In this document: in pieces, positions 24,833-44,635 of the stretch
Layout: each line of letters starts with the position of its first letter
How positions within the stretch are numbered: the first letter of the stretch is position 1
Position numbers and translations under genes: made by a program
The notes under the pieces: generated by a model
Seen by the model: the letters and a program-made list of their open reading frames with translations, nothing else
Database searches by the model: none
What the model was told of the DNA's origin: nothing
Source: Dehalococcoidia bacterium
GTDB taxonomy: Bacteria > Chloroflexota > Dehalococcoidia > Dehalococcoidales > UBA1222
Length of the DNA stretch: 53,890 bases
Direction: 5' to 3'
NCBI GenBank assembly: GCA_003597995.1
Contig: QZJY01000060.1
Span: 1 to 53,890 of the forward strand

Positions 24833-25756
24833 ATGTCTGTACCGATTACCCGTGGTGATCTTGCGAAGATGCTCTGGCCGGGATTGAACAAGATTTTCGG
24901 CCAGGAGTACGCGGAACACCCTGTTATTTACGAACGTCTGTTTAAGAAGTTCACTTCAACCAAGGCATACGAGGAAGAAGTCGGTCTGACCGGCCTCGGA
25001 CTCGTGCCGATCAAGACCGAAGGCTCTCCCGTGCTGATGGATAGCATGGCTCAGGGCTACATCAAGCGCTATACGCACGTTACCTACGCTTCCGGCTTCA
25101 AGGTTACTATGGAAGCGGCTGAGGACAACCAGTACCAGCTTACGCAGCAGATGATGAGAAGTCCGCGTGCGCTGGCCTACTCGATCCGTCAGACCAAGGA
25201 AACGATTGCGGCCAACATCTTCAACCGTGGGTTTACCTCGACGTATCCGGGTGCCGACAGCCTGGAACTGTTCTCGCTGCTCCATACCAATGGCGGCGGC
25301 AACGGTGGAACCTACCAGAACGAACTGACGACTGCGGCTGACCTGAGCGAAGCGGCTCTGGAACAGGCTTCCATTGACATGGGTGCCTGGACGAACGACC
25401 GTGGCCTGAAGATCAGCGCCCAGATTACCGCACTGGTAGTCCCTGTCGCGCTGAAGTTCGAGGCGTACCGGATCACCAAGAGCGTCCTGCGTCCGGGCAC
25501 GGCGAACAATGACCCCAACGCGCTGCATGCAATGGGCACCGTGCCGGAGATCATCGTATCGCCGTATCTGACCGACAGTGATGCGTGGTTCCTTCTGACG
25601 GACGTGCCCGATGGCCTGAAGTATTTTGAGCGCAAGGGCGACACGTTTGAAATCGACAACGAGTTCCTGACGATGGACGCCATCTACACCGGTCACTTCC
25701 GTTGCAGCTTTGGCTGGACTGACCCGAAAGGTGCTTTCGGATCAAGTGGGGCATAG
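24833..25756 (+). CDS. Major capsid protein (HK97 fold, Mu gpT-like)
   Basis: 307 aa; CACGGAGATAAACA precedes the ATG. The N-terminus LAKMLWPGLNKIFGQEYAEH and VIYERLFKKFTSTKAYEEEV, the spine-helix region MRSPRALAYSIRQTKETIAA, SLLHTNGGGNGGT, and C-terminal strands EIIVSPYLTDSDAWFLLTD and GLKYFERKGDTFEID match the Mu gpT-type HK97 capsid family. No N-terminal delta domain remains, consistent with separate scaffold genes upstream. It forms the icosahedral shell. A hairpin follows the gene. Confidence 0.88.
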   Translation: MSVPITRGDLAKMLWPGLNKIFGQEYAEHPVIYERLFKKFTSTKAYEEEVGLTGLGLVPIKTEGSPVLMDSMAQGYIKRYTHVTYASGFKVTMEAAEDNQYQLTQQMMRSPRALAYSIRQTKETIAANIFNRGFTSTYPGADSLELFSLLHTNGGGNGGTYQNELTTAADLSEAALEQASIDMGAWTNDRGLKISAQITALVVPVALKFEAYRITKSVLRPGTANNDPNALHAMGTVPEIIVSPYLTDSDAWFLLTDVPDGLKYFERKGDTFEIDNEFLTMDAIYTGHFRCSFGWTDPKGAFGSSGA

Positions 25757-25806: not shown

Positions 25807-25874
25807 GAATTAAAAAATATCCGAACTGCGGGTATTTCACTTATCGACGCCACTGGCGTCCGCAGGAGATGCAA

Positions 25875-26789
25875 ATGGTATACTCAAATTTCCCTAAAGG
25901 GTTCAGGGATGGCGTGACCATTCTTGACCTTCCTCACCAGCCGCTGGTCAACCCGGCCAATAAGGTGCTCTGGGTTGATTCCGGGGCTGACCGTAACGGC
26001 GACGGTTCGTATCATGTACCGTATGCCACTGTGGCTGCCGCGATCTCTGCGGCCAGTGCCGGCGATACGATTATGATTGCCGCCGGACACACTGAGAACC
26101 TTTCCAGCGCAACCATCTTTGCCGTAGCGACCGCCAGCCTGACGTTTATCGGCATGGGCGAGGGGCAGCGTATTCCGAAGTTTACAACTACGGCTACCGC
26201 TGGCGCTCTGATGGTCACGGCAGCCAACTGCGTGTTCCAGAACCTGCGGTTCGTAGCTGGTATCGACAACACCGTGCAGGCTATCGATCTGTCGGCTGAT
26301 GCCGATGGGACTATTATCCGTCGGTGTATCTTCGAGGACACGGCCAGCAACAAAGAGTTCCTGAAACACATTGACATCGCCACCACCATCGCCAACGTCA
26401 TTATCGAGGACTGCGAGTTCATCTGTACCGCAGGCGGCGGCATGACGAGTTCGATCTTCTTTACAGGGTCGAGTTCCGATGTTGTGATCCGCAATAACTT
26501 CTTCTGGGTGGATGCCTCGGCCTCAGTCATCGATCACCTGACGGGCATTGCAACGAACATCCTGATCCATGACAACCGGATGGTCAACCTTGACGCTACC
26601 ACCGTTCTGGGCCTCGGCATTAAATCCGACAGCACCAGCACTGGACAGGTATTCGATAACTATATCTTCTGTAGTGAAGCGGCTTCCGCGATCTTCGCGG
26701 TGACGAACGATTTCTTCGTCTGCGAGAACTACAGCACCAATAACATCAACGCCAGTGGCGTATTGCAGCCTGCTGCCGATACCATCTAA
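25875..26789 (+). CDS. Right-handed beta-helix protein 1
   Basis: 304 aa from the ATG at 25875, which has AGGAG at good spacing (the ATG at 25869 is too close to it). The cap KVLWVDSGADRNGDG, PYATVAAAISA and AGDTIMIAAGHTENLS begins a pectate-lyase-like parallel beta-helix. The coils repeat I-I-R-x-C-x-F and V-V-I-R-N-N-x-F (GTIIRRCIFED, NVIIEDCEFI, DVVIRNNFFW). No catalytic Asp/Glu cluster is evident. Such folds occur in tailspikes and capsid-decorating proteins; the location right after the capsid gene suggests virion surface attachment. The next gene is a paralogue. Confidence 0.75.
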   Translation: MVYSNFPKGFRDGVTILDLPHQPLVNPANKVLWVDSGADRNGDGSYHVPYATVAAAISAASAGDTIMIAAGHTENLSSATIFAVATASLTFIGMGEGQRIPKFTTTATAGALMVTAANCVFQNLRFVAGIDNTVQAIDLSADADGTIIRRCIFEDTASNKEFLKHIDIATTIANVIIEDCEFICTAGGGMTSSIFFTGSSSDVVIRNNFFWVDASASVIDHLTGIATNILIHDNRMVNLDATTVLGLGIKSDSTSTGQVFDNYIFCSEAASAIFAVTNDFFVCENYSTNNINASGVLQPAADTI

Positions 26790-26815: not shown

Positions 26816-27733
26816 ATGAGTAAGCTTTTAGCAGCTTCCAGCGCGGGTGCCGTCATTCAGGGTATCCCGACTTCACAGATTCCGAACTCGAATAAAAAGA
26901 CCATCTGGGTGGATGCTAATTTCACTCAGGGTCGGCGCGATGGCTCACGGCTCGGCCCGTATGCCACTATTGACGCGGCTATTGCCAAGGCTGCGACCGG
27001 GGATACTATCCTGATCGCTGCGGGCCATACCGAGAATATGTCTACCGCCGCCATCTTCGCCGTTGACGTTGCGGGATTGACTATCCGTGGCTTGGGCGAA
27101 GGTGAACGCAGGCCGACATTCACCTCGACTGCCGCCGCTGGCGCGTGCATGATTACTGTCGCCAATACGGTGCTGGAGAACCTCAAGTTCGTGGCGAACT
27201 TCGCTACCGGCACCACGCAGGCCATTGATCTCGCCGCCGCCGCCGATGGCACGATCATCCGTAATTGCGCCTTCCGTGATACCAGTGCGGCCAATGAGTT
27301 CCTGATCCATATCGACATCGCCACTACGATTGCGAACGTGGTGATCGAAGGCTGCGATTTCACGACCGCCGCCGGTTCGATGACAAGTTCGATTTTCTTC
27401 ACCGGCACCAGCAGCAACGTTGTGATTCGCAACAACCGTTGGCAGGTGGATGCTTCGGCTTCGGTTATTGACCATCTGACCGACAACCCGTCGCTGATCC
27501 GTATCCATAACAACCGGATCGTGAACATTGATGTTACCGCTGGCCTCGTTATCGGTCTCAAGTCCGATGATGCCGGTACTGGCATTATCTATGACAATTA
27601 TATCCAGTCGCCGTCCACTGGCGCTGCGGTTCTGGCGGCTACGAACGATTTTCATGTAGCGCAGAACTTCTGTAGCAACGACATTAATACCAGTGGCGTT
27701 CTCAACCCGGCTGCTGATACTTACGCGAGTTAA
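26816..27733 (+). CDS. Right-handed beta-helix protein 2 (tandem paralogue)
   Basis: 305 aa, colinear with the preceding protein after a different ~25-residue N-terminus (MSKLLAASSAGAVIQGIPTS). Shared stretches include KTIWVDANFTQGRRDG, PYATIDAAIAKA, GDTILIAAGHTENMS, IHIDIATTIANVVIEGCDF and TSSIFFTG. The tandem pair arose by duplication, with third-codon positions already diverged. Distinct N-termini may direct the two copies to different partners. Function inferred as virion surface or receptor interaction. Confidence 0.75.
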   Translation: MSKLLAASSAGAVIQGIPTSQIPNSNKKTIWVDANFTQGRRDGSRLGPYATIDAAIAKAATGDTILIAAGHTENMSTAAIFAVDVAGLTIRGLGEGERRPTFTSTAAAGACMITVANTVLENLKFVANFATGTTQAIDLAAAADGTIIRNCAFRDTSAANEFLIHIDIATTIANVVIEGCDFTTAAGSMTSSIFFTGTSSNVVIRNNRWQVDASASVIDHLTDNPSLIRIHNNRIVNIDVTAGLVIGLKSDDAGTGIIYDNYIQSPSTGAAVLAATNDFHVAQNFCSNDINTSGVLNPAADTYAS

Positions 27734-27801: not shown

Positions 27802-29052
27802 ATGAGGCCAGTTAATGTAACAATCGGCCTGTCTCCGGCGGATGCGGATGGGATATGCGCGTCGCAGACTACTGCTGCGGCAGCCGAACTCGATCTCAGT
27901 GGCGGGGCATTAAGCGCCGCCACGGGTATCGCTCGATTGGCTACAGCCGCTCAGATCGTTATTACCTGCGCCGCCGATGAGACTGGCAACACTTTCATCG
28001 TTACCGGCGTTAATGGTAGCGGCCTGCCCGTCGAGGAACGCATTACCGGCGTAAGTGCCTCTGCGGCTACGAGCGTCCAGAGTTACCGCGAGGTGTCCCG
28101 CATCTATATTACGGGAGCCACTTCCGGCAACGTCAGCGTTGGCGTCTCCGGCTCTACGCAGTCGATTTCGGTCAACCAGACAGCCACCGCCGCAAGGGCG
28201 TTGACGATCACCGGCATAATGAGTTACGAAGCCAAGATGACCGGCTACGCCGACAACGGCGCACCCCTGCCTGTTCTGATTTATTCCGCTGGTGATGATA
28301 CGGGTGATACGTTTACGATCTACGGCCAGGATGGCAACGGCGTGGATATCTCCGAAGCCGTTACCGGGGCCAACGCCGATACAGCCACCAGCACCAAGAC
28401 ATTCAGGAAGGTCTACGCCATCTACGACAGTGGAGCATCTACCGGAGCGGTATACGCCGGGTGGGCTTCCGATGTGGATGGTATCGCCAAGAGCCAGACG
28501 ATGGCCGGGGCGGGCTACCTTGTAATGAACGGTGCCAAGTGTACCACTCAGCCGCGCCACGTATCCATCTATTCCAGTGCCGATGAATCAGCCTTCACGT
28601 TCACCGTAGTCGGCACCGACCGTACCGGCGCTCGCTTGACTGAGGACATCACCGGCCCGACCGCTGCGGCTACCGCTAAAGGCAATAAGAACTTCGCTAC
28701 CGTTCAGGCTGTGTATATCAACGGCAACGCGGCTGGCAATATCACCGTCGGCTCGGCTGACGAGTGTGAAAGCAAGCCGATCATCGTTGACTACTTCACC
28801 AGCGGCATGTCGGTTGCCATTCTCCATTCCACCAGCGACAGCCAGACGCATCGCTTCCTGGTTACGCTGGATAACCTGCTGTCGGGCGAACGCAATGAGG
28901 ACACCGCCCGCTGGCTGGAGGAGACCGGCACTGCAACAGCGAATGAAACATTTTCGTCTACATCCGTGGTCAAGGCGGTTCGCCTTGAGATCACCGGCCA
29001 CGTTCGCGGGGCCGTTGACATGCTGATGAACTTCCCTGGGTATAACGATTAA
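27802..29052 (+). CDS. Ig-like repeat protein of the neck/head region
   Basis: 416 aa after AAGGAGGAATTA. Three tandem ~100-residue modules (about 10-135, 135-240, 240-330) share a pattern: ADxDGIxxSQT, an Ile/Val strand, ADETGNTFIVTGVNGSG or ADESAFTFTVVGTDRTG, EDITGP, a Thr-rich turn, F-(R/A)-(K/T)-V-x-x-(I/V)-Y and SGNVSVG. Single copies of the same module sit inside the neck proteins at 30508 and 31552. The last ~85 residues differ (VDYFTSGMSVAILHSTSDSQ). No signal peptide. Likely a virion decoration protein, possibly adhesive. Confidence 0.65.
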   Translation: MRPVNVTIGLSPADADGICASQTTAAAAELDLSGGALSAATGIARLATAAQIVITCAADETGNTFIVTGVNGSGLPVEERITGVSASAATSVQSYREVSRIYITGATSGNVSVGVSGSTQSISVNQTATAARALTITGIMSYEAKMTGYADNGAPLPVLIYSAGDDTGDTFTIYGQDGNGVDISEAVTGANADTATSTKTFRKVYAIYDSGASTGAVYAGWASDVDGIAKSQTMAGAGYLVMNGAKCTTQPRHVSIYSSADESAFTFTVVGTDRTGARLTEDITGPTAAATAKGNKNFATVQAVYINGNAAGNITVGSADECESKPIIVDYFTSGMSVAILHSTSDSQTHRFLVTLDNLLSGERNEDTARWLEETGTATANETFSSTSVVKAVRLEITGHVRGAVDMLMNFPGYND

Positions 29053-29519: not shown

Positions 29520-30482
29520 ATGGCTACAAGCGGTGTTGTAACTTTAAGCACCAGTCAGGACGCCCTGATCCGCCGGGCTTTCCGGCTGCTTGGATTAATA
29601 CAGGTGGGTGGCACGCGCTATCCCGAAGAGATGGACAATGCGGCTGAAGCCCTGAACTCCATGCTCAAAGAGTGGGATTCTCAGGGCGTTGGTTTGTGGC
29701 TGATAAAGCCGGTCACTTTATATCCTCAAATGGATAGTGCATCTTACAACCTTGGGCCAAGCGGCGACCACGCAACGCTGTCCGGGGTCAGCACCGAGAC
29801 CTCCGCTGCCGCTTCAAGCGGCGCAAGCACTATATCTGTAGATAGTGCAACAGGAATAGCGGACACATACTACATCGGTGTTGAACTGGACAGCGGTTCT
29901 TTTCAGTGGACTACCGTGAATGGTACGCCGCCCGCCTTGGTTGTAACGCTGGATGACGTACTGACCGATGATGTCGATGATGGCGCTACGGTAGTTTGCT
30001 ATCAGACTAAGATCGCAAGGCCGCTCAGGATCAAGAACCCGCGTTACAAGAACAGTAGCGGCTACGAGCGTCCGCTTGATCTGTTGAGCCGGAGCGAATA
30101 TCAGGGGCTGACCGACAAAACCACCGCACAGAGCGATGGGCCGACAGCCGTGTACTACGACCCTCAGCTTACCAATGGCAAACTGTACGTTTGGCCGGTA
30201 AACTCCAACGTTGACGGCGAGATACTGTTCGATGCCGAGATGCCGATGGAGATTCTGAGCGCCAGAACTGACGAACCTCTGGTCGCCAATGAGTGGCAGA
30301 ACACTATCGCGCTTAATCTGGCCGCGCTTATTGGTCTTGAATATCCGCTGGAAGTAAGCAAGCAGCATCTCGCCTATGTGGATGCGCGTGCGCGGGAAGC
30401 GTTTATGAAACTCAAGCGTTGGGACGAAGAGGTCACGAGCCTCTTCCTTGGCCCTGATTTGTCAATGGGCGGTTATTTCTAA
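29520..30482 (+). CDS. gp4-like neck (tail accessory / packaged-DNA stabilization) protein A
   Basis: 320 aa. The helical N-terminus DALIRRAFRLLGLIQVGGTR and EALNSMLKEWDSQGVGLW, then a beta domain, LLSRSEYQGLTDKTTAQSDG, YDPQLTNGKLYVWPVN and C-terminal helix NLAALIGLEYPLEVSKQH match the P22 gp4-type family that closes the portal after packaging and starts the neck. The beta domain has its own ~85-residue region with Ser/Thr-rich strands. First of three paralogues. Confidence 0.75.
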   Translation: MATSGVVTLSTSQDALIRRAFRLLGLIQVGGTRYPEEMDNAAEALNSMLKEWDSQGVGLWLIKPVTLYPQMDSASYNLGPSGDHATLSGVSTETSAAASSGASTISVDSATGIADTYYIGVELDSGSFQWTTVNGTPPALVVTLDDVLTDDVDDGATVVCYQTKIARPLRIKNPRYKNSSGYERPLDLLSRSEYQGLTDKTTAQSDGPTAVYYDPQLTNGKLYVWPVNSNVDGEILFDAEMPMEILSARTDEPLVANEWQNTIALNLAALIGLEYPLEVSKQHLAYVDARAREAFMKLKRWDEEVTSLFLGPDLSMGGYF

Positions 30483-30507: not shown

Positions 30508-31545
30508 ATGATACCACGCAACTTGATTAATTCTGCCCTGCGTGCGATTAATGCTATCGGGGCGAATGAAGTTCCTACCAACGACATGTTCGAGGATGCC
30601 CGCGAGCTATTGAACATGCTGCTGGACTCGTGGAGCGCGGAAGAACTACTGCCCCATGATTACGTGCAAACATCTTTCGACCTGTTGGCTGCGATAGAGA
30701 ACTACACTATCGTCGATGGTGCCGAGGCTGATGCCGATGGCATCTGCGTATCTCAGGCTGTTAGTGGAGCGAGCACCCTAACCATTAATGGAGTGGGAAC
30801 TGGTTCGGTGACGGTAGCCAGCGGCGTAGCTACAATGGACTACCCGCGCCACGTAAGCGTCCTGAGTGCCGGAGCTAACACGGCGGTCACTATGACCGTC
30901 GTTGGAACCAATACCTATGGCGACGCCATCAGCGAAGTCATTACTATGGGCGGCAATGGCGTTACCACTTATGGCGTTAAACAGTTCAAGACGGTCACAT
31001 CGGTTACATCTTCGGGCGCGGCATCCGGCAACGTATCCGTCGGTAGCGACGCCATTATTGACATCCGCCGTCCGATCAAGATTGTATCGGCCTTCTGTCG
31101 CACCTCGGCTGGCGTCGATACGCCTGTGCTGATCGCTTCCCGCGAGCGCTTCAACGAGATCAGGGACAAGGATGAGGCTGGCACGCCGACCAAGTTGTAC
31201 TATGACCGGCTGTATCCGAGCGGTGAAATCTACATCCATCCGACCCCGGCGGCTGCCGGTACACATGACCTCCACCTTGACCTGTGGTTGCCGTTCGTTA
31301 CCATCTCGGCATCTTCGGTCGATACCGACATTAACCTGCCGAGCGAGTATCTGTTGGCCTTCAGATGGAACCTCGCGGCTGAACTGGCTCCTGAGTATGG
31401 CAAGAACGTGACCGAGTTCGTGTTCGCCCGTGCGGCGGAAACCAAGAACGTCATTCGGATGCTGAACAGTATGCCGCCGAAGCCGCTCAGTATGGCGTCG
31501 CCGATCCCACTGGTTAATAATCAGCCAGCGTTTAACAAGAACTAA
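30508..31545 (+). CDS. gp4-like neck protein B with inserted Ig-like module
   Basis: 345 aa. N-terminal helices LINSALRAINAIGANEVPTN and ARELLNMLLDSWSAEELLPH and the C-terminal part (RERFNEIRDKDEAGTPTKLY, NLPSEYLLAFRWNLAAELAP) are the gp4-like core. Residues ~72-188 are an inserted module, ADADGICVSQAVSGASTLTI through TMTVVGTNTYGDAISEVITM to SGNVSVGSD, of the type repeated in the 27802 gene. The core is thus split by a decoration domain exposed on the neck. RBS ATGGAGAACTGAAAC is weak but well placed. Confidence 0.72.
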   Translation: MIPRNLINSALRAINAIGANEVPTNDMFEDARELLNMLLDSWSAEELLPHDYVQTSFDLLAAIENYTIVDGAEADADGICVSQAVSGASTLTINGVGTGSVTVASGVATMDYPRHVSVLSAGANTAVTMTVVGTNTYGDAISEVITMGGNGVTTYGVKQFKTVTSVTSSGAASGNVSVGSDAIIDIRRPIKIVSAFCRTSAGVDTPVLIASRERFNEIRDKDEAGTPTKLYYDRLYPSGEIYIHPTPAAAGTHDLHLDLWLPFVTISASSVDTDINLPSEYLLAFRWNLAAELAPEYGKNVTEFVFARAAETKNVIRMLNSMPPKPLSMASPIPLVNNQPAFNKN

Positions 31546-31551
31546 GGATAC

Positions 31552-33426
31552 ATGACCGGACGGCAACTGATAACTTCAGCTTTGCGAGCGGTCAACGCCA
31601 TCGGCAGCGATGAGGCTCCTGAGTATGGCATGTTCGAGAACGCACGCGAAACGCTGAATCTTCTACTTGGTTCGTGGAGTGCGGAGGAGTTAATGCCGCA
31701 CCACTACAGCCCGGTGACGATTCCGCTGTTCGCCAATACGCCGAACTATACCATAAACAACGGGACGGCGTTCGACTCCGATGCCATCTGTCTGGCGCAA
31801 ACGCCAGCGGCTGGCGGTAGTCAAGCGCTGACCATCAACGGAACGCTGGCCTCCAGCGGCGTGGCGACTACGGATGTTCCCCGCCATGTTATCATCGCTT
31901 CTACCGCCGATGATTCCGCCAGAACTTTTACCATAGTCGGCACCAATGATTATGGGGATAAGCTGACGGAAGTCGTGTCCGGCCCGAATACCGCTACGAC
32001 CAGAGGACTGCAACGCTTCAAGACAGTAACGAGCGTAACGGTCGATGATGACACGGCGGGAGCTATCTCGGTAGGGACGGATTATATCATCAATGTCCGC
32101 CGCCCCGTCAAGATCGTCAGCGCCATATTGCGGGACTCCGATGGCTACGATGCGGTAATCAAGGTTATCGACAAGAACCGTTACGACGAAATTGGGGATA
32201 AGGATGAGGCCGGAGCACCCACGAAACTGTACTACGACCGGGTGAATCCTACGGGCGAGGTATACATACATCCTGTACCGGCCACCGGCGTAGCTCTGGG
32301 GATAAACACCGGGACTGAATGTATATCCAATGGCGGGTTTGGGTCATCCACCGGATGGACACTGGATGGCGGAACGTACTGGTCGATAAGCGGTGGTCAA
32401 TTAATAAGAACCGCCCCGGTCAGCGAAATGCTTAATAATACTTCGTTTGACACTACCGGTTCATGGACAATTTCGGGCAACGGCAGTCAACCGGACTGGG
32501 TTATTTCCGGCGGCAAGGTGGCATTTGCACAGAACGGCGACACGCTTGAAAATCTATATCAGGCCACGGCGGATATGGTGAGTGCGCTACAGCCGCTTAC
32601 GCAATATACGGTCACGGTAGTCATCGAAGCAGGCCCGGTGTTCACTAATTCCGGGCTGTATATTTCACTTGGCGCAGGTAGTGTGAACCAAGGGGCAGCG
32701 GGAACGTCATCTTACATTAACACTGCCGGAACACATGCCGAGACAGTAACGACACCGGCTGTCATCCATGCCAATGGCGTATGGCCGCTTGTTCAACTGC
32801 CCGGTCTAAGCGGAACGCAGTTCAGTATACTAAGCCTCTCCGTAACCCCGGTGGACGCCGATGATACGGTGACTCAGCTTGATGCTGATTTGGCGGCATC
32901 TTTCGTTCCGGGGGATAAGTACACCGTGACGTTCGACACTGAGGACGTTACGGATGGCACCGTATCCCCGGCGATAGGGGGCACATCCGGCCCCGCTGTG
33001 TCGTGGAATGACTCGCACTCGTTTGAAGTCACTTGCGGCGTCGGCGCGGACTTCGAGTTGGTAGCATCCAGTGATTTTACGGGCAAGGTGGACAATGTAA
33101 GCGTCTCCGATCTTCCATATAGCACGCTGACGCCAGTGGATTATCAACTTATCATGGACTTATGGCTACCGTTCGTCGAGATTGATGCCGCCAATGTCGA
33201 TGATGACATCGGTCTGCCGGGAGAATACCTGCTGGCGCTGCGTTGGAATCTGGCGGCGGAGTTGGTGCCGGAATATGGTAAAGAGGTTTTGCCTTACGTC
33301 ATCATCCGGGCCAGGCAGACAAAAGACACGATCAAAATGCTTAATGGGATTATTCCGAAAAAGTTCAACGCGGGCCGTCCGGTGCCATCGATCAATGGCC
33401 AGCCAGCCATAACGCGGATAGGATAA
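31552..33426 (+). CDS. gp4-like neck protein C with Ig-like and nested jelly-roll insertions
   Basis: 624 aa, paralogue of protein B (LITSALRAVNAIGSDEAPEY, GLPGEYLLALRWNLAAELVP). It has an Ig-like module at ~70-185. At ~250 the core breaks after GEVYIHPVPATG and resumes at ~525 with YQLIMDLWLPFVEID. Between them is a galactose-binding/CBM-like jelly roll (ISNGGFGSSTGWTLDGG, SISGGQLIRTAP) that is itself interrupted by a second complete jelly roll (MLNNTSFDTTGSWTISGNG to LSVTPVDADDT) before its C-terminal half (GDKYTVTFDTEDVTDG to VDNVSVSDL). Likely displays carbohydrate-binding domains at the neck. Confidence 0.72.
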   Translation: MTGRQLITSALRAVNAIGSDEAPEYGMFENARETLNLLLGSWSAEELMPHHYSPVTIPLFANTPNYTINNGTAFDSDAICLAQTPAAGGSQALTINGTLASSGVATTDVPRHVIIASTADDSARTFTIVGTNDYGDKLTEVVSGPNTATTRGLQRFKTVTSVTVDDDTAGAISVGTDYIINVRRPVKIVSAILRDSDGYDAVIKVIDKNRYDEIGDKDEAGAPTKLYYDRVNPTGEVYIHPVPATGVALGINTGTECISNGGFGSSTGWTLDGGTYWSISGGQLIRTAPVSEMLNNTSFDTTGSWTISGNGSQPDWVISGGKVAFAQNGDTLENLYQATADMVSALQPLTQYTVTVVIEAGPVFTNSGLYISLGAGSVNQGAAGTSSYINTAGTHAETVTTPAVIHANGVWPLVQLPGLSGTQFSILSLSVTPVDADDTVTQLDADLAASFVPGDKYTVTFDTEDVTDGTVSPAIGGTSGPAVSWNDSHSFEVTCGVGADFELVASSDFTGKVDNVSVSDLPYSTLTPVDYQLIMDLWLPFVEIDAANVDDDIGLPGEYLLALRWNLAAELVPEYGKEVLPYVIIRARQTKDTIKMLNGIIPKKFNAGRPVPSINGQPAITRIG

Positions 33427-33430
33427 GACA

Positions 33431-35266
33431 ATGCCAAGGATTCCATTTCCGATTGTAGGCGGTTCATACAACGGCGTATCCTCTGACGCTAATCCACAGA
33501 GGTCTATCAACTGGTATCCAGAGGATGACAAGAGTGGTGGCCGAAAGATGTTGCGGCCTACTCCGGGCCTGACTTTACTGACAACACTGCAAGAGGAATC
33601 TCTCGGCAGCGAAATGATTACCAGTGGAAACTTCAGTAGCCCTTCGCCGTGGACGCTTGCCGCCAAGTGGAGTATTAGTGGTGGCAAACTTGTGCATATC
33701 GCTGGCGCGGCGGACACTGCTTCGCAGGTGGCTGGCAGCATGGTGGCGGCCCCGGTGGCTGGTTCGACATACAGGGTGACGTTCACCGTCGAAAGTATCA
33801 GCGCCGGATTATTCACAGTAACCCTTGGCGGAGCCACTTACGCTTCCCCGATTATAGCCAGCGGAAGTTACAGTTTCGAGATAACGGCTACGGACACCAC
33901 AGGCCTTATCCTGACGGCTACCGCGAGTCTGGCCGTCTCGTTGGACAGCATGAGCGTCAAGACGTTGACCTATCCGCAGTACGCCATTCGTGGTATGCTG
34001 CCGGTGGGTGACTATCTGTATGTTGTCTATGGCCCGTACCTGCGCCGCCTTGACAGCGCCTTCAGTTCGACTACGCTGAACAGCGACTGGCTGATGAACT
34101 CCACCGGACTGGTTACTATGGCGCACATCCGTTCCGGTGACGGGTTCCAGATAATGATCTGTGATGGAACGGACAAGTCCGCCTATATATATGATACCGA
34201 TACGGAATTATTTACCGTGCTTAACGAACTGGACTATGACTTTCAGGGCGGCGGGTCGGTTGCGGCCCTTGATGGATACTTTCTATCCCATCAGGTCGAT
34301 GGTGATCGCATCTACAACTCGGAAGTTTCTGAAGGCTTGTCTTGGGATGCCGCCGATGACAGCCGGGCATGGGTCAAGACTTCGGATATACAACGTATAT
34401 ACGCCCACGATCAACTGCTGTGGATATTCAAGCAGGATGGTGCGGAGGTGTTTTACAATTCCGGCGAGGCGGGGGATACGCAGCCGACCTTCCAGCGCAT
34501 GAGTGGTGGGGCGATCAACATAGGCACCATCGCTTCGTGGAGCGTCGCTTCTATCAAGGACAAATTGTTCTGGCTCGGCAGCGATAAGACGGTGCAAATG
34601 GCTACCGGTCAGAGCCTGCGTACCGTAAGTACGCCGCAACTCAGCTATCAGATAGAGGCGATGGCGACGGTCAGCGATGCGGTTGGATACGGCTATACGG
34701 AAGAGGGGCACGACTTCTATGTGCTGTCATTCCCATCGACCGATGTAACTTATGTCTATGATTCGAGCATGGATGAATGGCACGAGCGGGAGAGCTACGA
34801 CTCAGACAGGCAGACGGATGGGCGGCACCGCAGCAATTGCTATGCCTACTTTCAGGACAGGCATGTCGTCGGCGATTTTGCCAACACAAAACTATACGAA
34901 CTTGATACTACGGTACGCACCGAGGATGGCAACAGGATCATCCGGCAAAGAATTACGCAGAATATAAATCAGGATAACCTGATGTTGTTCTTGAACCGCT
35001 TCGAGGTTCACTTCGAGGGCGGGATAGGATTAGCCAATGGGCAGGGATCGAGTCCATTGGCGATGCTGCGCGTCAGCAAAGATGGCGGGCACGTGTGGTC
35101 TGGTGTCCGTACTGCGCCAATGGGCGGCAAGGGCAATTATGATACGCGCTCGTACTGGGCGCAACTTGGCAGCGGCAGGGACTTCGCTGTATGGTTGTCC
35201 GTGTCCGACCCTGTCAAGGCTATCGTTATCGGCGCTTACCTCGACTATGAGCAAGGATACGCCTGA
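33431..35266 (+). CDS. gp10-like packaged-DNA stabilization protein with jelly-roll insertion
   Basis: 611 aa. The start IPFPIVGGSYNGVSSDANPQ with RSINWYPE and KMLRPTPGL, and the later propeller-like body (AIRGMLPVGDYLYVVYGPYL, WIFKQDGAEVFYNSGEAGDT, DFYVLSFPSTDVTYVYD), match the P22 gp10 tail-hub family that sits below gp4. Residues ~57-172 are an inserted jelly roll (MITSGNFSSPSPWTLAAKWS, ISGGKLVHI to VSLDSMSVKTL) related to those in the preceding gene. AAGACA/AAGGAT is a weak ribosome-binding site; stop overlaps the next start. Confidence 0.75.
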   Translation: MPRIPFPIVGGSYNGVSSDANPQRSINWYPEDDKSGGRKMLRPTPGLTLLTTLQEESLGSEMITSGNFSSPSPWTLAAKWSISGGKLVHIAGAADTASQVAGSMVAAPVAGSTYRVTFTVESISAGLFTVTLGGATYASPIIASGSYSFEITATDTTGLILTATASLAVSLDSMSVKTLTYPQYAIRGMLPVGDYLYVVYGPYLRRLDSAFSSTTLNSDWLMNSTGLVTMAHIRSGDGFQIMICDGTDKSAYIYDTDTELFTVLNELDYDFQGGGSVAALDGYFLSHQVDGDRIYNSEVSEGLSWDAADDSRAWVKTSDIQRIYAHDQLLWIFKQDGAEVFYNSGEAGDTQPTFQRMSGGAINIGTIASWSVASIKDKLFWLGSDKTVQMATGQSLRTVSTPQLSYQIEAMATVSDAVGYGYTEEGHDFYVLSFPSTDVTYVYDSSMDEWHERESYDSDRQTDGRHRSNCYAYFQDRHVVGDFANTKLYELDTTVRTEDGNRIIRQRITQNINQDNLMLFLNRFEVHFEGGIGLANGQGSSPLAMLRVSKDGGHVWSGVRTAPMGGKGNYDTRSYWAQLGSGRDFAVWLSVSDPVKAIVIGAYLDYEQGYA

Positions 35267-36338: not shown

Positions 36339-37163
36339 ATGGCGCGTATACCGTTGCAGCAAGTTGAAACCGGGCCGCTGATTGCCCCCGCTCTCCACAT
36401 GGCGAACCAGATCAGGGAAGGCCGCGCCCGTGCGGCTATCACCGAAGAAACGGCAAGGAACGCCCCTGAGTCTCAGCGGCTGGCTATCGGCCAGCAGAAG
36501 GCTACGCTTGAAGGTACGCAGCAGATAAACCAGATGCGCCCGAAACAGGAAGAGCGTGCCGCCGGTCAGGATGATCGTTCCAAGGAAATCCACGGTCTTA
36601 ATATGGCGAAGGGATTGCTCGAAGCCAGCAAGGCTGCGATGGCGGACGTTACCGACCCCAAGGAGTACATGCGTCGGCGCGATATAATGATTAAGCAGAA
36701 CCCCACTTTCGAGGGACTGCTTGATGAACTGACTCCCGAAGAACAGACACCCGAAGGCTTTATAAAAGCGCGGGAGAAACGCGCCAACGACCTGATGAAA
36801 CTGGATAAAGACCTCCAGTATAAGTTCGATGCCCTTGAAACCACCAAGCGCGGTCAGGACATCCAGCTTAAGGTCGCCGAGATATACGCCAACGCCCGTG
36901 AGGCCAACAAGACAGACCCGGAGCAACTGAAGGCCGCAGATAAACGCCTTATCTACCAGCGGCTGTACGATGAATGGGCGGATGAGTATAAGGAGCAAGT
37001 TGAAGTCGAAAACCCGGAGACTGGTCTACTGGAAAAGGTATGGCGTACCAGACCCGACGCTCCCAAGTTCGATATGAAGTGGAAGAAGCAACGCTTTGCC
37101 GAAGACCTGCAACTACTTGGCAACGATGAAACCAGTGGCGCTAAACCTAAACTGGAATACTAA
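36339..37163 (+). CDS. Putative ejection/internal virion protein, 274 aa
   Basis: ATG at 36339 chosen because GGGGAGGCTTTAATC precedes it, instead of the frame-extending ATG at 36129. Mostly alpha-helical and Glu/Lys/Arg/Ala-rich (ANQIREGRARAAITEETARN), with a long central helix and polar C-terminus. Comparable in position to P22 gp20/gp7 or T7 internal core proteins. No catalytic motif. Stop overlaps the next start. Confidence 0.65.
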   Translation: MARIPLQQVETGPLIAPALHMANQIREGRARAAITEETARNAPESQRLAIGQQKATLEGTQQINQMRPKQEERAAGQDDRSKEIHGLNMAKGLLEASKAAMADVTDPKEYMRRRDIMIKQNPTFEGLLDELTPEEQTPEGFIKAREKRANDLMKLDKDLQYKFDALETTKRGQDIQLKVAEIYANAREANKTDPEQLKAADKRLIYQRLYDEWADEYKEQVEVENPETGLLEKVWRTRPDAPKFDMKWKKQRFAEDLQLLGNDETSGAKPKLEY

Positions 37164-40100
37164 TGCCGAATAGCATTGAAAAACTGTACGAGGCTGGCAG
37201 CGAAAAGTTCGACCTCGGCGACTTCGATACCTTCTATAACAAGATGGGTAATCCGCAGAGCCGCCAGAAGTTCTACGCCGCCATGACCAAGCACTATGAC
37301 CTTGGCGAATACGATGCGTTTGAGTCCAAGGTCAATCAAGGCTTCCTGCCGTCTGATAATCAGGAGCCGGATCAGCTTGAGGCAAGGCCGGGGTACGCCG
37401 AAGAACAGCCGCCAGCGCCAGCCGACATGGTAAGCCGCTTTGTTCAGGATAGTACCGCCAACGATCCGTTCCTGGCTGGCCTGAGCGCTGACATCGACGC
37501 CCAGCTTTCGGATACGCTTAACCTGCTGAATCAACCATCGGATATGGGTGGAAGTTACAATACGCCCATACCGGAAGATCAGCAGCAAGCCTATCTTGAG
37601 CAGAGCGCGGTAGAAAGCAACCAGCGCGGTCGTGATGCTCAAATGGATGTCGGTGATTATGATATCCAAGGCAACTTCCTTGCCGGTCAGGGTAAGGATG
37701 AGCGCGGGCATGGTAGCGATCAGTTCAAGAAACCGAATCATCCGACATTTTCCGTTGAGTCCCAGTATTCCGGGCAGGGCGGCGAACAGGGCGGAACGTG
37801 GGGCGAAGAAAACGGACAGCCGACATTTACTCCGGGGCCGAGTAATCTTAAATACCACAGCAGGAAAGAACTTGAAGATTACTTCAAAGAAGCCGAGCCG
37901 AATGTCAAGTTAAAGTGGCCGGAACAGATAGACATGGGCGCTATCCAGCCGCAGGCCGAACCGGCAAGCACCACTGACGTTGAAGGCGGACAGCCGCAGC
38001 CAGCGCCGCAGCCGATGGAGGCTGGAATCGCCGATGATGATGGGGTTCTTGGCGCGGCAGTGACGGGGACGTTGCACGGCATTTTTGGTTCACTTGGCGC
38101 TGGTACGTTCGACACGATAGCTGCTGGTGCCCGCTCGTTGCGCAAACAACTTGAAATGCCAGAAACCGACCTGACCAGACGGTCAGGCATATCCGCTCTA
38201 CCAGAAAGCGCCACCGAAATTGGGGCATCAAAAATAGCGGATAAACTTACCAAGATGGCTGAGAAATATCAGCAGCCAGAAGACTTGCAGGGGAAGAACC
38301 TCTATGACAACCCTGAGATCATCCTTGATCCAAGGTTCACTGCTTATGGATTAGGAGATATGTTGCCATCGTTCTTGGCCGCGATGATACCATCGACGGC
38401 TGCCCTTAAATTTGGGCGGCCTGTCGCGGGCGCAGTCGGTGGGGCGACGGCGGGCTTGATGGAAGGCGCTGGCATTTATCGTGAGACTCTGGATCGCGGC
38501 GGATCGCACGACGAAGCACTAAGGAATATGTTGTATATGACCGTTGGTGCTGGCTTGCTGAATAAAATAGGTTTCGACCGCATGTTCGCCAAGGGCGTCA
38601 AGGGTAAGCGACTCATTAAGAATACGGCGACGATGTTCGTCGAAGCGATCACCGAGTATCTGGAAGAGCCGCTTGGCGCGACGATCTTGGGCGTGCCCAA
38701 GGAAGAATTTATCCAACGTATGAAGGATGGTTTGGCCGTACTCGTGCCCGCCGCATTTATGGGTGGAGTCGGCAGCGTAACGAGCGACAAGATAGAAGAC
38801 AGGCAGAATCGCAAGAACTTAGAAAGATATATGAAGCCGTTCATCGAGAACCCACAACAGTTCATCGATGACAGGCTGGCTTTTATTAACAGCTTAGAGC
38901 AGAAAGCCGCTCCTACCGACGAGGCCAAGCAGCCGTCCACCGGCATGACCGCCGAAGAAGAAACTGCGCTGAAGGCTGAAGAGGCAACAACTGAAGCCGC
39001 CGAAACAGAGCCAGCCGAAGTCAAGTCCGTACTGGACGAACTGTACGGGCCAGAAGAACGGCCTACGGCTGCACCAGTAGTTCCAACCGAAGACATCTCC
39101 GCCCAAACGCAGACCGAACTCGATGAGGCTGCCGCTGGCATGGACATTTCTGCGTCCGTAGCTGCACAGGAAGCTCGTGGCGAAGAGATCACTGCCGAGC
39201 CTACCCCTGATATACCCGCAGGGGAGATCGCCGCTGAAACGAGCCGTGAGTCGGCGGTTTCTGGGGAACGTACCATAGAACGTCGCTTGTCCGATAGGGA
39301 AGTTGAAGTTGAGCGCCGTCTGTCCGAACAAGCGCCGATCATGGGCGTGGATGATGAGCGTGTGCCGTTTATCAACGCCGATGTCGAACGCCTTGGCTCG
39401 GCTGAAGCCGTAGCCGAACGCTATGATACCGATAGCGCGGAAGATAGGTATGCCCGGCAGCACGCGGAGAAGATATTCGGACAAGCAGGTCAGGAATTAA
39501 CTCTTGCCAAATCCGGCAGGCCATACAAGACTCAGCAGGCTGCCAGCCGCGTAGCCCGTAAGCTTGGGGCCGACTACGAAGCGGTTCCAACCGAAGGCGG
39601 TTTCGGCATCCGTAAGGCCGAGACTACGGCCAAGCTTGTATCTGAAGCTGTACAGGTCGAACCGACGATTGATACCGAAGCGGTATCAACTGGTTCCGAA
39701 ATGGAATCAGTTGCACAGGCTAAACGCATGGTTGCTGGAATGGACTACGATGGCATCCAGAAGCTTATTGATGACCGCGAGACGGAACTGGAAGAGCAAG
39801 GCGTTACGGATTATCAAGAACAATCCAATGACCCGCTGCTGACCGCGCTATACGAGGAGCGCTTTGCAGTAGAGCGCGAAAATATGCGGAACCTCGATTC
39901 TAACGTCAGGCGTGAACTTAAGGCAAGCGTACCGGCCATACCGGAAATGTTCCCGCGTAGGCTGAAGGCGGGCGTAGAACCTTCTGCGGAGACGCTTGAT
40001 TTTATCTTAAGAGACGAATTTGGAATTAATCCCAAAAGCCAGACCGCTACATACTTTACATCGCAGGCAGTTAAACGGCTATTTGGGGGCGATTATACTT

Positions 40101-43100
40101 CTAAGCAAAGTTTGAAAAAAGCACACGAAGGCATTACCAAGACCCTTATAAATGGTTGGGCAAGAGAGCACAATCTCGACTCGGATGGAATCTTTTCTCC
40201 GGTATCTGGATTGGGACAGGGGGAACAGCGGGCGATCTTGGAATATTTTAGCAAGGTGGCGGACAATATCATTACCACCGTCCGCAACCAGTTGTTATCC
40301 ACGACAGATGCCATTGCACCCAATTTGGGTACAAGTGTTCCCAAAATAGGAACAACCCCGTCGAAATCGATGGGATTAGAATCGGCTGAACGTCAGGCAG
40401 AGCCTCGTCCAAGTGATACCGATGTCATACTGGCTTCTTCCGGCAGGCCGTTCGTAACCGAACAAGCCGCTAAACGGTTCGCCGCCACAAGGGGCGAGGG
40501 ATACGAAGCGGTTCCTTATGGCGACAAATGGGCCGTCAAGAAACCTGCGCCGAAGCCGAAGCGGGAACTGACCGAGGAAGAACGGGCTAAGGTCGAAAAG
40601 GAACTTGACAAGTTGGAGCGGGAAGCCGGTGTCCTTGATGTAACCCCGCGCAAGAGTATCGGTATGCATATCGACAAGCCGGGGGCCATCGATGAGTTGG
40701 CGGCTGAAGAAGAAGGGCCGCCGGAAGGCATACAGTTCTCCATCGCTTCTTCCCGTCCCGCTGGCGAACCGGGCATGGGCGTCATTGAAGTAATGAAAAT
40801 ACTTGACCCGATCAAGGGTAAGTTCAATATACCGATCAGGGTACTCGGCTCGGCTGAGGACATAGAAGATGCCGAAACAAGGGAAGCCGCCCTTGCCGAA
40901 TTAAAGAAGGGCAGCGTCATCTCCGGCTACTATGATGACAAGGCTAACAACAGGCGTGGCGAGATTGTCCTGCTGGCCGATGGCATCCGTAACGAGAAGG
41001 AACTACTGGAAGCCGTTCTACCGCATGAGATAGCCCACTACGGCATACAGGGCGTGCTCGGCAAGGAGGGCTACAAGGCTTTCCTGGCCGACTTGCGTAG
41101 CGATCCGGTTATCGGGCCGCAGATTAACGCACTGATTAAACAACATGGTTGGAAGCCTGACTACGCCGCTGGCGAATGGTGGGCCAACAACGCCGAAGGT
41201 AAAAATCCAGATGAGATATCGCCGACCATCTGGCAGCGTATCGTCATACTGTTCAGGAAAGCCATGCGTGCCATGCGCGGGGCCAAGCGGTGGAGATTTA
41301 CCAACATCGAAATAGACAACATGCTGCGGAAGGGGTATGAGTATGCGACGGCCAAAGATGCTGCCGAGATACGAGCCGGAACCGGCGAAGCTGCATTCAA
41401 AACGCAGTCGCTCAACGACCTTGTGACGCAACTGGCCCAGATTGAGAAATCGATTTCCGAATTGCCACCGGTCAGGAACGCCATGCCGACTACCGGCATA
41501 CGCCAGCGGCTGGAAACCAAGGCTCAGGAACTTGAAGAACGCATAGCCAATTGGGATGGGCCACAATTCAGGAGCAGGAAGGCCGAGGGCGAAGGCATGG
41601 AGCGCAAGATCACTGATGCGGCCCGTGCTGATGCGGAACAGTCACTCGATGACATGCGCAAGGATGTTATGGAGTACGCCAAGAGATACATCCCCGGCAG
41701 CGGTATGAGCCGTGACGAAGCCCGGAAACATCTTAACGCCATACACAATGCCAAGGATACCAATGCACTCGCCGGGGCTTTCGTCCGGTTAGAGGCTGCG
41801 GTCATGGGCGAAGAAGATGGCCTTGGCGTGGACTCGCAGGGGAACGTCATCCGCACCACTTTCGAGTTGCCGGAAGAAACACGGTTGCAGCATCTGCGCC
41901 GCTGGTTACAGGACTCGATGGCTCGGTTACAGACAGTCCAGAAAGAAATAGTCAAGCAGACCGGTAAAGAGATCACGCCTGAAATGGATGCCAACATGAG
42001 GCAGGTACTGGAAGTTGGCCGGGCGGCTCACCGTGTCGAGAAGTTCATGGAGAAGATGGTGCGGGGCAAGGAAAGTTTCCTTGGCCGCATGAATGAGGCT
42101 GGTATTAATCAGCGGGACTTCTCTCTGTACCTGACGGCCCTGCATACGGAAGAGCGCCGGAACGCTACCATTGGCCGCAAAATAGAGAAGGCACGTAGCG
42201 AAAAGCAGGCGACGTATTGGCGCACCCGGCTGAATGATGAGAACGATGATTTCGGCAGCGGTATGAGCATGAAAACAGCCAAGCGCGTTATCAAAGACAT
42301 GCAGGCGTGGCATCCCGATATCCAGAAATTCGCCGAAGAGTTTTACGATAATACAACGCGGGCCGCCCTGCGGATGAGACTGGAAAGCGGACTGATCTCA
42401 CAAGAGTTTTATGACAAGCTGAACGAAACGTACAAGAATTACGTTCCGCTAAAGGGCCGGAGCGATATCGAAAGCAAGCGTCCAGGCGTAAGTAAGACCA
42501 CTGGAATGCTTGCGACCGGCATACGCAAGGCTCGTGGCCGCCAGTCTGATGCTGATGACCCCTTCGCCCAGACGCTGGTTGATTTTACTGATGCCATCAC
42601 CCGTTCCGAGCAGAACCGGGTACGTCAGGCGTTCCTGAAACTTGTCGAGGCCAATCCTGAACCGGGCGTGTGGAGCACGCAGCCTGCTCCCGAACCAGTG
42701 GAGTCCATTGGTGAGGAAGGCAACATCCAGTATGAAGAGCCGCTGCGTAAGTACGATGACAACGTACTGGAAGTTCGCGTAGACGGAGAGTCTCACCTGA
42801 TCTCCATCCATGACATCCCCTTGTCGCAAAGTATGAAGGGCTTGGGCATGGAGCGCAGTTTCCAGTTCTTCAGCGCGATCAATAGTTATCTGCGGGCCGT
42901 AAACATTATGCTCTCGCCGGAGTTCCTGATAACGAACTTTGAGCGCGATCTCCAAACGGCACTCGTTCATGTGTCTGGTGAGCAGAGTGCAAAGATGGCG
43001 GGGCAGACGCTCAAGCACCTGCCGAGCGCGATGAAGGGCATCTGGAAAGACCTGCGCGGTAAGAACAATGAATGGTCTCAGTATTATGAAGAGATGAAAG

Positions 43101-44635
43101 AAGTGGGTGGCAAGGTAAGTTGGATGCGTCTTGAGAGCACGCCGGAGATGATGAGGAAGATCGAAAAGGAACTGAAGAACCTCAACGAGAACGATGTTGC
43201 CAAGTCGCTGGAGGCGTTCAAGGCTGTCGGCAGGCTGGTGGAAAATGCCAACGAAGTCGTTGAGATGGGAACGAGGCTCGCCTTCTATCGGACGATGCGC
43301 GAGAATGGGTTCTCCGCCGATAAGGCTGCGCAAGCCGCCAAGGAACTGACCGTAAACTTTAACACTCGTGGGCAGGTCGGCCCGCTCATCAACAGCTTGT
43401 GGCTATTCGCCAACGCCGGAGTCCAGGGTAGCTATAGAATCGTTTTCAAAGCTCTTAAGCACAAGAGGGTGCAACAGATAGTCGGTGGCATAGTCGTACT
43501 CGGCTTTCTCCAGAGCCTGTTCAATCGCTGGATGGATGATGATGAGTGGGATCAGTTCAGCGATTACAATAAAGACAACTATTGGATGTGGATGATGCCG
43601 AACGGCAAGACCGTTGCGGTCAAGGTGCCATACGGCTACAACGTCTTTAAGGTGGCCGGGAACCTCGCCGAAGAGGCTGCGTTCGGCAACCTGACGCTCG
43701 GCCAAGCCGGTAAGCGTATGTTCTCAGCCGTCAACGATGCGTTCAACCCCTTGGGCGGCGGATCGTTCTCGCAATTCCTGTCGCCGACGGCCTTCGACCC
43801 GCTGGTGCAGATAACTGAGAACAAGAACTTCTACGGTGGCCCGATCACGAAGGAGCAGCCGGAGTACGCGCCAGATCAACCAGCCCACACGTTGCATTTC
43901 AAGGGCGTAAGTATCTGGGCCAAAGCGCTGACGAAGTGGCTGAATAAAATAACTGGCGGCACAGATGTCGTGAGTGGCAAGGTGGATGTCAACCCGGAGA
44001 TGATAGATCACTTCTCGGATTGGGTTGGCGGCGGACTCGGCAGGTTCATAACCAATACGATTAACCTTGGCGCTACTGCAATCAGCGAGCGCGACCTGCC
44101 GCAGATCGAAAAGATTCCGGTGGCTCGCCAGATGCTTAGAGAGAGCAGCGAGTGGGTGGATACCGGCTACATATATGAAACGCTCAATCGTTCGGGCGCA
44201 AACATATTGTCGGCGAAAGAAATGGAGCATTTCAACGAAGCCGTTGAACGCGCATCGGCGGCGGGGAAGATAACACCGACGCAAAAGGATCGCTATCTCA
44301 AGGATATGCGGAGTAATCAGGCTGCCGCTGAAGCATCGCTACAAGGTTCCCCGGCGAGGGCAAGTCTGCTTGCCCGCTACGAGGCGTTCCACTCTACGCC
44401 GCTGGAAGACCGCGATAAGAGCGAGATAAAGGAAATTCATAAACTCATTAATGAGCATAACCGGCGGGCGGTTAAGTCGGGCGAGCAGAAAATCTCTGAG
44501 CAGGCACTGGATTATCGCAGGGATAGGGCATACGAGAAATTATATGGACGCAAAAGACCAAAACAGCGCGGCGAATCTCAAGGACGTCCTCGGCCTCCAG
44601 AGCCGCCAAGACCCAATAGAAAACCTATTAGATAG
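37163..44635 (+). CDS. Giant polyvalent ejection protein with metallopeptidase and LPD38 domains
   Basis: 2490 aa, by far the largest gene. N-terminal repeats FDLGDFDTFYNKMG/YDLGEYDAFESKVN; a Gly/Ala-rich hydrophobic stretch at ~395-440 (MLPSFLAAMIPSTAALKFG); an acidic linker; two copies of a ~35-residue motif at ~780 and ~1090 (SGRPYKTQQAASR, SGRPFVTEQAAKR, each ending YEAVP). A zinc metallopeptidase motif HEIAHYG lies at 1288-1294 with GEWWAN downstream, and a long helical region at ~1450-1850. The C-terminal domain from ~1916 (SPEFLITNFERDLQTALVHV, SYRIVFKALKHKRV, WMDDDEWDQFSDYNKDNYWM) matches LPD38, a polyvalent-protein domain. Such proteins are injected with DNA and act early in the host. 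The proteolytic target is unknown. Confidence 0.82.
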   Translation: MPNSIEKLYEAGSEKFDLGDFDTFYNKMGNPQSRQKFYAAMTKHYDLGEYDAFESKVNQGFLPSDNQEPDQLEARPGYAEEQPPAPADMVSRFVQDSTANDPFLAGLSADIDAQLSDTLNLLNQPSDMGGSYNTPIPEDQQQAYLEQSAVESNQRGRDAQMDVGDYDIQGNFLAGQGKDERGHGSDQFKKPNHPTFSVESQYSGQGGEQGGTWGEENGQPTFTPGPSNLKYHSRKELEDYFKEAEPNVKLKWPEQIDMGAIQPQAEPASTTDVEGGQPQPAPQPMEAGIADDDGVLGAAVTGTLHGIFGSLGAGTFDTIAAGARSLRKQLEMPETDLTRRSGISALPESATEIGASKIADKLTKMAEKYQQPEDLQGKNLYDNPEIILDPRFTAYGLGDMLPSFLAAMIPSTAALKFGRPVAGAVGGATAGLMEGAGIYRETLDRGGSHDEALRNMLYMTVGAGLLNKIGFDRMFAKGVKGKRLIKNTATMFVEAITEYLEEPLGATILGVPKEEFIQRMKDGLAVLVPAAFMGGVGSVTSDKIEDRQNRKNLERYMKPFIENPQQFIDDRLAFINSLEQKAAPTDEAKQPSTGMTAEEETALKAEEATTEAAETEPAEVKSVLDELYGPEERPTAAPVVPTEDISAQTQTELDEAAAGMDISASVAAQEARGEEITAEPTPDIPAGEIAAETSRESAVSGERTIERRLSDREVEVERRLSEQAPIMGVDDERVPFINADVERLGSAEAVAERYDTDSAEDRYARQHAEKIFGQAGQELTLAKSGRPYKTQQAASRVARKLGADYEAVPTEGGFGIRKAETTAKLVSEAVQVEPTIDTEAVSTGSEMESVAQAKRMVAGMDYDGIQKLIDDRETELEEQGVTDYQEQSNDPLLTALYEERFAVERENMRNLDSNVRRELKASVPAIPEMFPRRLKAGVEPSAETLDFILRDEFGINPKSQTATYFTSQAVKRLFGGDYTSKQSLKKAHEGITKTLINGWAREHNLDSDGIFSPVSGLGQGEQRAILEYFSKVADNIITTVRNQLLSTTDAIAPNLGTSVPKIGTTPSKSMGLESAERQAEPRPSDTDVILASSGRPFVTEQAAKRFAATRGEGYEAVPYGDKWAVKKPAPKPKRELTEEERAKVEKELDKLEREAGVLDVTPRKSIGMHIDKPGAIDELAAEEEGPPEGIQFSIASSRPAGEPGMGVIEVMKILDPIKGKFNIPIRVLGSAEDIEDAETREAALAELKKGSVISGYYDDKANNRRGEIVLLADGIRNEKELLEAVLPHEIAHYGIQGVLGKEGYKAFLADLRSDPVIGPQINALIKQHGWKPDYAAGEWWANNAEGKNPDEISPTIWQRIVILFRKAMRAMRGAKRWRFTNIEIDNMLRKGYEYATAKDAAEIRAGTGEAAFKTQSLNDLVTQLAQIEKSISELPPVRNAMPTTGIRQRLETKAQELEERIANWDGPQFRSRKAEGEGMERKITDAARADAEQSLDDMRKDVMEYAKRYIPGSGMSRDEARKHLNAIHNAKDTNALAGAFVRLEAAVMGEEDGLGVDSQGNVIRTTFELPEETRLQHLRRWLQDSMARLQTVQKEIVKQTGKEITPEMDANMRQVLEVGRAAHRVEKFMEKMVRGKESFLGRMNEAGINQRDFSLYLTALHTEERRNATIGRKIEKARSEKQATYWRTRLNDENDDFGSGMSMKTAKRVIKDMQAWHPDIQKFAEEFYDNTTRAALRMRLESGLISQEFYDKLNETYKNYVPLKGRSDIESKRPGVSKTTGMLATGIRKARGRQSDADDPFAQTLVDFTDAITRSEQNRVRQAFLKLVEANPEPGVWSTQPAPEPVESIGEEGNIQYEEPLRKYDDNVLEVRVDGESHLISIHDIPLSQSMKGLGMERSFQFFSAINSYLRAVNIMLSPEFLITNFERDLQTALVHVSGEQSAKMAGQTLKHLPSAMKGIWKDLRGKNNEWSQYYEEMKEVGGKVSWMRLESTPEMMRKIEKELKNLNENDVAKSLEAFKAVGRLVENANEVVEMGTRLAFYRTMRENGFSADKAAQAAKELTVNFNTRGQVGPLINSLWLFANAGVQGSYRIVFKALKHKRVQQIVGGIVVLGFLQSLFNRWMDDDEWDQFSDYNKDNYWMWMMPNGKTVAVKVPYGYNVFKVAGNLAEEAAFGNLTLGQAGKRMFSAVNDAFNPLGGGSFSQFLSPTAFDPLVQITENKNFYGGPITKEQPEYAPDQPAHTLHFKGVSIWAKALTKWLNKITGGTDVVSGKVDVNPEMIDHFSDWVGGGLGRFITNTINLGATAISERDLPQIEKIPVARQMLRESSEWVDTGYIYETLNRSGANILSAKEMEHFNEAVERASAAGKITPTQKDRYLKDMRSNQAAAEASLQGSPARASLLARYEAFHSTPLEDRDKSEIKEIHKLINEHNRRAVKSGEQKISEQALDYRRDRAYEKLYGRKRPKQRGESQGRPRPPEPPRPNRKPIR

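Follow-up and report, generated by a model that had tools for sequence, protein, structure and literature searches.

Nested insertion of jelly-roll family members in a predicted head–tail adaptor of a short-tailed phage

We propose that the 624-residue protein encoded at 31552–33426 is an adaptor-ring subunit of a P22/SU10-like short-tailed phage, with one member of a jelly-roll family carried in a hairpin loop and a second member nested inside the first, and we put the probability of this reading at roughly 0.68. The domain order N1-N2-C2-C1 is real at the level of sequence. The gene lies in a short-tailed-phage structural block on contig C60 of a 1.8-Mb assembly; the whole stretch analyzed, 53,890 nucleotides long, is referred to below as the window. 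The features needed for the argument, in window coordinates, are:

29520–30482, forward strand: third gp4-like gene, more distant, in which the insert is also absent (phrog_12985, E 5.4e-20; alignment)
30508–31545, forward strand: adaptor-gene paralogue lacking the nested insert, with an “empty site” near residues 245–256 (56% identical to 31552; alignments)
31552–33426, forward strand: predicted gp4-like head–tail adaptor (P22 gp4/SU10 adaptor type) with the nested insert, a single open frame of 624 residues
31768–32079, forward strand: first site of insertion into the gp4 core (residues ~73–176), holding a module of ~100 residues (sequence matches and alignments)
32314–32418, forward strand: N half of the outer jelly roll (residues 255–289; 27.7 bits in the independent profile, model positions 1–31)
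32419–32859, forward strand: inner domain, divergent but belonging to the same family (residues 290–436; 20.2 bits, positions 3–91 of 117)
32860–33117, forward strand: C half of the outer jelly roll (residues 437–522; 34.2 bits, positions 41–116)
33142–33423, forward strand: C-terminal part of the gp4-like core (residues 531–624; 58% identical to the C-terminal portion of 30508; matches P22 gp4 chains at profile positions 226–279)
33431–35266, forward strand: gp10-like hub/nozzle protein, head closure Hc3 (phrog_578, E 7.3e-88)
33602–33970, forward strand: one uninterrupted copy of a domain from the same jelly-roll family, within the gp10-like protein (residues 58–180; 77.8 bits, profile positions 1–117)

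As judged by profile comparison, the 31552 protein matches phrog_12985 (E 2.3e-27) and phrog_637, head–tail adaptor Ad3 (E 7.2e-5); its match to Pfam P22_Tail-4 falls just under the cut-off of 21 bits (20.1 bits, E 7.4e-4), and that to Pfam SU10_adaptor is below cut-off (E 0.88). Sequence of the gp4-like type is found at both ends of the protein, and a profile built from 11 relatives reached P22 gp4 chains of known structure. The gene is placed between a capsid-like gene (24833–25756) and the gp10-like hub gene, as is the case for P22 gp4 and SU10-type adaptors.

Several further properties of this region are recorded here. Three gp4-like adaptor genes stand in a row between 29520 and 33426. 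The ~100-residue module found at the first site of insertion in 31552 also occurs once in the 30508 protein and three times in the protein encoded at 27802–29052, and copies in these two proteins show 47, 35 and 29% identity to that of 31552. Two adjacent genes, 25869–26789 (306 residues) and 26816–27733 (305 residues), are visibly similar and probably a tandem duplicate; the former weakly matches DUF1565. Downstream of the neck genes, a single open frame of 2490 residues occupies 37163–44635, a size seen for internal virion or polyvalent proteins.

Compared with the 30508 protein, which continues uninterrupted across a β hairpin at the corresponding place, the 31552 protein contains ~285 extra residues (~246–530) within its one open frame, in agreement with the claim of the initial annotation that the gp4-like core is interrupted. 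We analyzed the extra segment with an independent profile that includes no window sequence and was built from 11 sequences of other phages related to the gp10 insert. Joined together, the two outer pieces score 63.8 bits, near the sum of the separate halves (27.7 + 34.2). Against the gp10 insert, the joined halves reach a local score of 167 (shuffle mean 32.9, z 22), and the N and C halves taken singly give z values of 11.6 and 13.2, respectively; in each of the three comparisons, none of 1000 shuffles attained the observed score. The two halves thus match the gp10-like insert together, as had been annotated; the first of them, put at ~40 residues, is present with a length of ~35. The outer pieces are complementary halves around an inserted domain, the A1-B1-C-B2-A2 arrangement by which nested domain insertion is recognized.

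The inner domain is related to both of the others, with z values in shuffle controls of 8.9 against the gp10 insert and 8.3 against the joined outer domain. Its profile match stops at position 91 of 117, leaving the last strand outside the coverage, and its similarity to Pfam HpiC1-like (E 0.013) is below cut-off. When aligned by MAFFT with five partner rows, contiguous domains split unaided into the two outer halves. When more rows were included, the short fourth strand was sometimes misplaced onto the inner domain, 4–14 of its residues being moved there in many of the sets, and in every set tried the N half of the single-domain rows was placed on the outer N half.

Two AlphaFold models of the insert were obtained. 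The first, from six rows, is confident for the outer C half only (mean pLDDT 50.7). In the second, from 22 rows (mean pLDDT 68.0, pTM 0.60), the outer N half has block means of 82–94 (model residues 11–40) and 66 (41–50) and the outer C half of 82–97, and the predicted outer-domain strands are 32–35 and 38–41 in the N half and 193–197, 211–223, 226–230, 242–249, 256–260 and 265–275 in the C half, so that the insertion point lies between strands 38–41 and 193–197. The inner domain is of low confidence in both models, with block means of 38–59 in the second. The 22 rows were kept from many row sets tested, in that MAFFT placed the conserved Q of the single-domain rows on the outer domain’s own Q. 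Since the alignment had already split the single-domain rows, and since the rows were selected for correct placement, the second model is not independent proof of the pairing of the halves; what it shows is that the pairing is structurally sound, with the outer halves predicted to form one jelly roll. Of the nested jelly rolls originally described, the outer one is accordingly upheld by its complementary halves and by a high-confidence model, and the completeness of the inner one is less secure; from its homology we infer that it, too, is probably a complete jelly roll.

The modeled outer domain has a β-sandwich jelly-roll fold that resembles known carbohydrate-binding modules (CBMs). VIA-align pairs it with CBM16 2zex at Z 12.3 (rmsd 2.6, 119 aligned of 147, model range 6–276) and, with low-confidence stretches excluded, with 2zew at Z 12.1 (118 aligned). 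CBM61 (Z 11.3) and CBM4-2 (Z 10.8) are among the other high-ranking matches, and CBM35 is among those of Foldseek. Sequence identity to these solved folds is 11–23%. None of the Pfam CBM families scores above cut-off for the window pieces, and CBM_4_9 is below cut-off for two relatives (L118, E 0.075; L167, E 0.042). We therefore claim only a CBM-like fold and do not assign the domain to a CBM family; for the annotated label “carbohydrate-binding”, the predicted fold speaks in favor and the Pfam cut-off against. Some of the BFVD structure matches are long alignments to uncharacterized phage proteins.

Based on these observations, we propose that a CBM-like jelly-roll module would have been inserted into the β-hairpin loop of the non-helical part of the adaptor, and that a second, divergent family member would occupy the loop that follows strand three of that module. 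Both domains would project outward from the 12-subunit ring, near the place where fibres dock in related phages; the insert should point this way by analogy, because the dock loops of the SU10 adaptor protrude radially. They may provide accessory, low-affinity binding to surfaces, most likely to glycans as the host is approached, and not form part of the DNA channel. Sugar binding is suggested here by the similarity of the predicted fold.

A serious rival, which we regard as possible though tentative, is that the inserts are structural, serving as a fibre or spike anchor or as a neck stiffener and binding no sugar. The analogous region of SU10 is reported to dock long tail fibres (PMC9509320), the Ig-like domain of the R4C adaptor was judged structural by the authors of that study on account of its position near the head (PMC10276861), and in phage RcapMu a member of the family stands at the C terminus of a fibre-J-like protein whose gene is followed directly by one for a tail spike. 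Against this, the closest solved folds are glycan-binding modules, although fold alone is not decisive for function, and the authors of the work on Agrobacterium phage Milano favor low-affinity surface binding as the role of capsid jelly-roll and Ig-type domains (PMC10491603). We favor accessory surface binding over a structural or fibre-anchoring role.

We searched for adaptor relatives bearing the insert. A scan with gp4-like alignments gave 545 encoding stretches, of which the best 80, together with 13 further loci, were taken as a set of 93. The jelly-roll family is absent from the fetched stretches of all 93, and a gp10-like match is present in 81 of them. The relatives with only the outer domain that the initial annotation had suggested looking for were thus not found among these gp4-like loci. 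No second phage with the nest was found in the phage records and IMG/VR stretches searched, and closer relatives of the whole 624-residue protein were found neither in 50,697 phage records nor in plasmid records, IMG/VR (by peptide patterns) or genome contigs. Among 400 genomes of the same phylum, the gp4 profile matched that of the window alone. In a set of 101 genomes related to the window’s assembly (its own included; two matched), the sole outside match, G012 (E 2.9e-4), has two in-frame stops and an RNA-polymerase-like gene nearby, and we regarded it as a chance hit. A DNA pattern designed for a tandem pair of N halves, which by its spacing would miss the window’s own nest, retrieved eight IMG/VR stretches, none of which encodes the domain by profile and four of which have low-complexity, W-rich frames. 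The sole match to the inner domain alone, L121, was set aside as a chance match to a short peptide.

Among the gp4-like relatives, one from IMG/VR (L037) passes the Pfam SU10_adaptor cut-off (2.2e-8). Eight of the best 80 IMG/VR relatives (L053, L061, L063, L068, L071, L077, L078 and L105) have a different module, in two tandem copies, at the first site of insertion. Many gp10-like frames (L037, L039, L048, L050 and others) have 100–200 extra residues near the jelly-roll site of the window’s gp10-like protein, and the first 60 of 202 rows suggest an insertion hot spot at this site.

Members of the jelly-roll family are widespread. The family is encoded by at least 517 of 599 IMG/VR viral stretches examined and by 36 of 61 stretches of genome contigs, and in named phages it occurs in fibre-J-like tail proteins such as that of RcapMu. 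In Edwardsiella phage vB_EpM_ZHS, a stand-alone member of 141 residues (ZHS_9; L017, 3953–4378) is encoded next to a gene for a putative head fibre. No Pfam model covers the domain above cut-off; binding-type domains can in this way be stacked on a phage neck ring and escape recognition by current family libraries. Multiple matches, mostly in tandem, are present in 28 of 123 domain-bearing open frames. Split domains, by contrast with these arrays, are confined to two proteins among the 123 frames and 238 loci, namely the window protein and L231, and these two also hold the only internal N-only half matches among 169 domain matches; one other internal C-only half match was found, in L127.

L231 is a Tad-type protein from an alphaproteobacterial metagenome-assembled genome (positions 1–2565), with a vWA domain split into VWA_2 (171–229) and VWA (740–841). 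Between these, residues 303–647 are arranged as N1 (303–333), N2 (337–366), a full domain (369–479), C2 (492–563) and C1 (565–647), giving three levels of nesting, and model position 31 is once more the point of the break. Eighteen genomes of the L231 family were searched and ten matched. The triple nest stands at the same vWA site in three genomes (L231, L251 and L252); L253 has one contiguous domain there (302–409, 102 bits), four (L254–L257) have none, and two (L258, a fragment, and L259) gave no domain match. No level of the triple nest stood out as ancestral when all three were compared with the single domain of L253.

Another explanation of the window nest is that it arose from partial duplications, the N half first and the C half next, or from self-copying of a resident domain, and not by capture. 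Local stretches of likeness between N1 and N2 (40 of 47 nucleotides) and between C1 and C3 (103 of 139 nucleotides) are compatible with self-copying in L231. In the window protein, however, the outer domain is closer to two copies elsewhere (scores of 187 and 173) than to the gp10 copy (167) or the inner domain, and the inner domain resembles the outer (85) no more than it does four unrelated phage copies (94–100). Because copies elsewhere score higher than local ones, neither domain looks like a recent local duplicate, within the weak resolution of such scores. Old self-copying followed by divergence would still fit, and we consider this origin unlikely overall; capture, which had been annotated as repeated, is plausible to the same resolution.

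The improbable reading that three tandem domains are present, two of them decayed to a relic N half and a relic C half that do not pack together around a complete middle domain, draws on the tandem arrays common in the family and on the poorly defined last strand of the inner domain, but was rejected on the complementary break points, which fall at the same model position with halves that sum to a full domain, and on the half-domain counts given above, besides which both interrupted levels of the triple nest show this break again and the second AlphaFold model builds a single jelly roll from both halves. The preference of the initial annotation for a nested over a tandem arrangement is upheld by these points.

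Taken with the nest in the adaptor, the triple nest suggests that the jelly-roll family can serve as guest as well as host at a single loop. We would go further, at about even odds, and regard the family as a recursive insertion module, in which the loop after strand three accepts a whole copy of its own family, guest and host meeting at one fixed place; at these same odds, such Russian-doll stacks would occur in unrelated proteins (a phage adaptor and a Tad vWA protein), with none, one and three levels surviving among relatives. This series offers natural material for the study of insertion tolerance, of the folding of nested chains and of how a phage surface module spreads through a permissive loop.

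Finally, we compared the arrangement with known systems. Nested insertion as such, and a jelly roll within a jelly roll in a phage neck, are already known. An ECOD-based catalogue lists 48,551 insertion events with nests of up to six levels, and its multi-level insertions share the A1-B1-C-B2-A2 architecture with 31552; the accessible part of that survey gives no example of self-insertion by one family at a shared loop of unrelated host proteins (PMC13114784). In the open-licence literature we likewise found no account of a single family that nests in itself at a shared loop of unrelated proteins and whose relatives have none, one or three levels, and no papers on jelly-roll nested domain insertion or on a domain inserted in a vWA/Tad protein. 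The CBM families 16, 4, 35 and 61 share the predicted jelly-roll fold of the outer domain and differ from it in sequence, as judged by the low identities and Pfam scores given above. A gp4-like core is probably common to 31552, SU10 gp11 and P22 gp4/Sf6 gp7. SU10 gp11 is reported to consist of a helix bundle, a fibre-dock domain with radially protruding loops and an embracing loop, with the dock domain absent from the P22 and Sf6 adaptors; unlike in 31552, a CBM-like insert is not among the features given in the accessible part of that account (PMC9509320).

The closest parallel, likened by its published architecture, is the collar protein gp13 of phage Milano, in which a jelly roll (residues 1–69 and 167–230) is interrupted by a jelly-roll-like domain (70–166) that, in the DALI search of its authors, resembles glycan-interacting proteins (PMC10491603). 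This precedent qualifies the statement that such nesting is unusual in neck proteins, which otherwise accords with the absence of the domain from all 93 gp4-like loci. As far as that published account extends, gp13 differs from 31552 in being the collar protein of a contractile-tailed phage and not a gp4-like adaptor, and in having two levels in all, whereas the jelly-roll pair of 31552 itself sits within a third domain, that of the adaptor.
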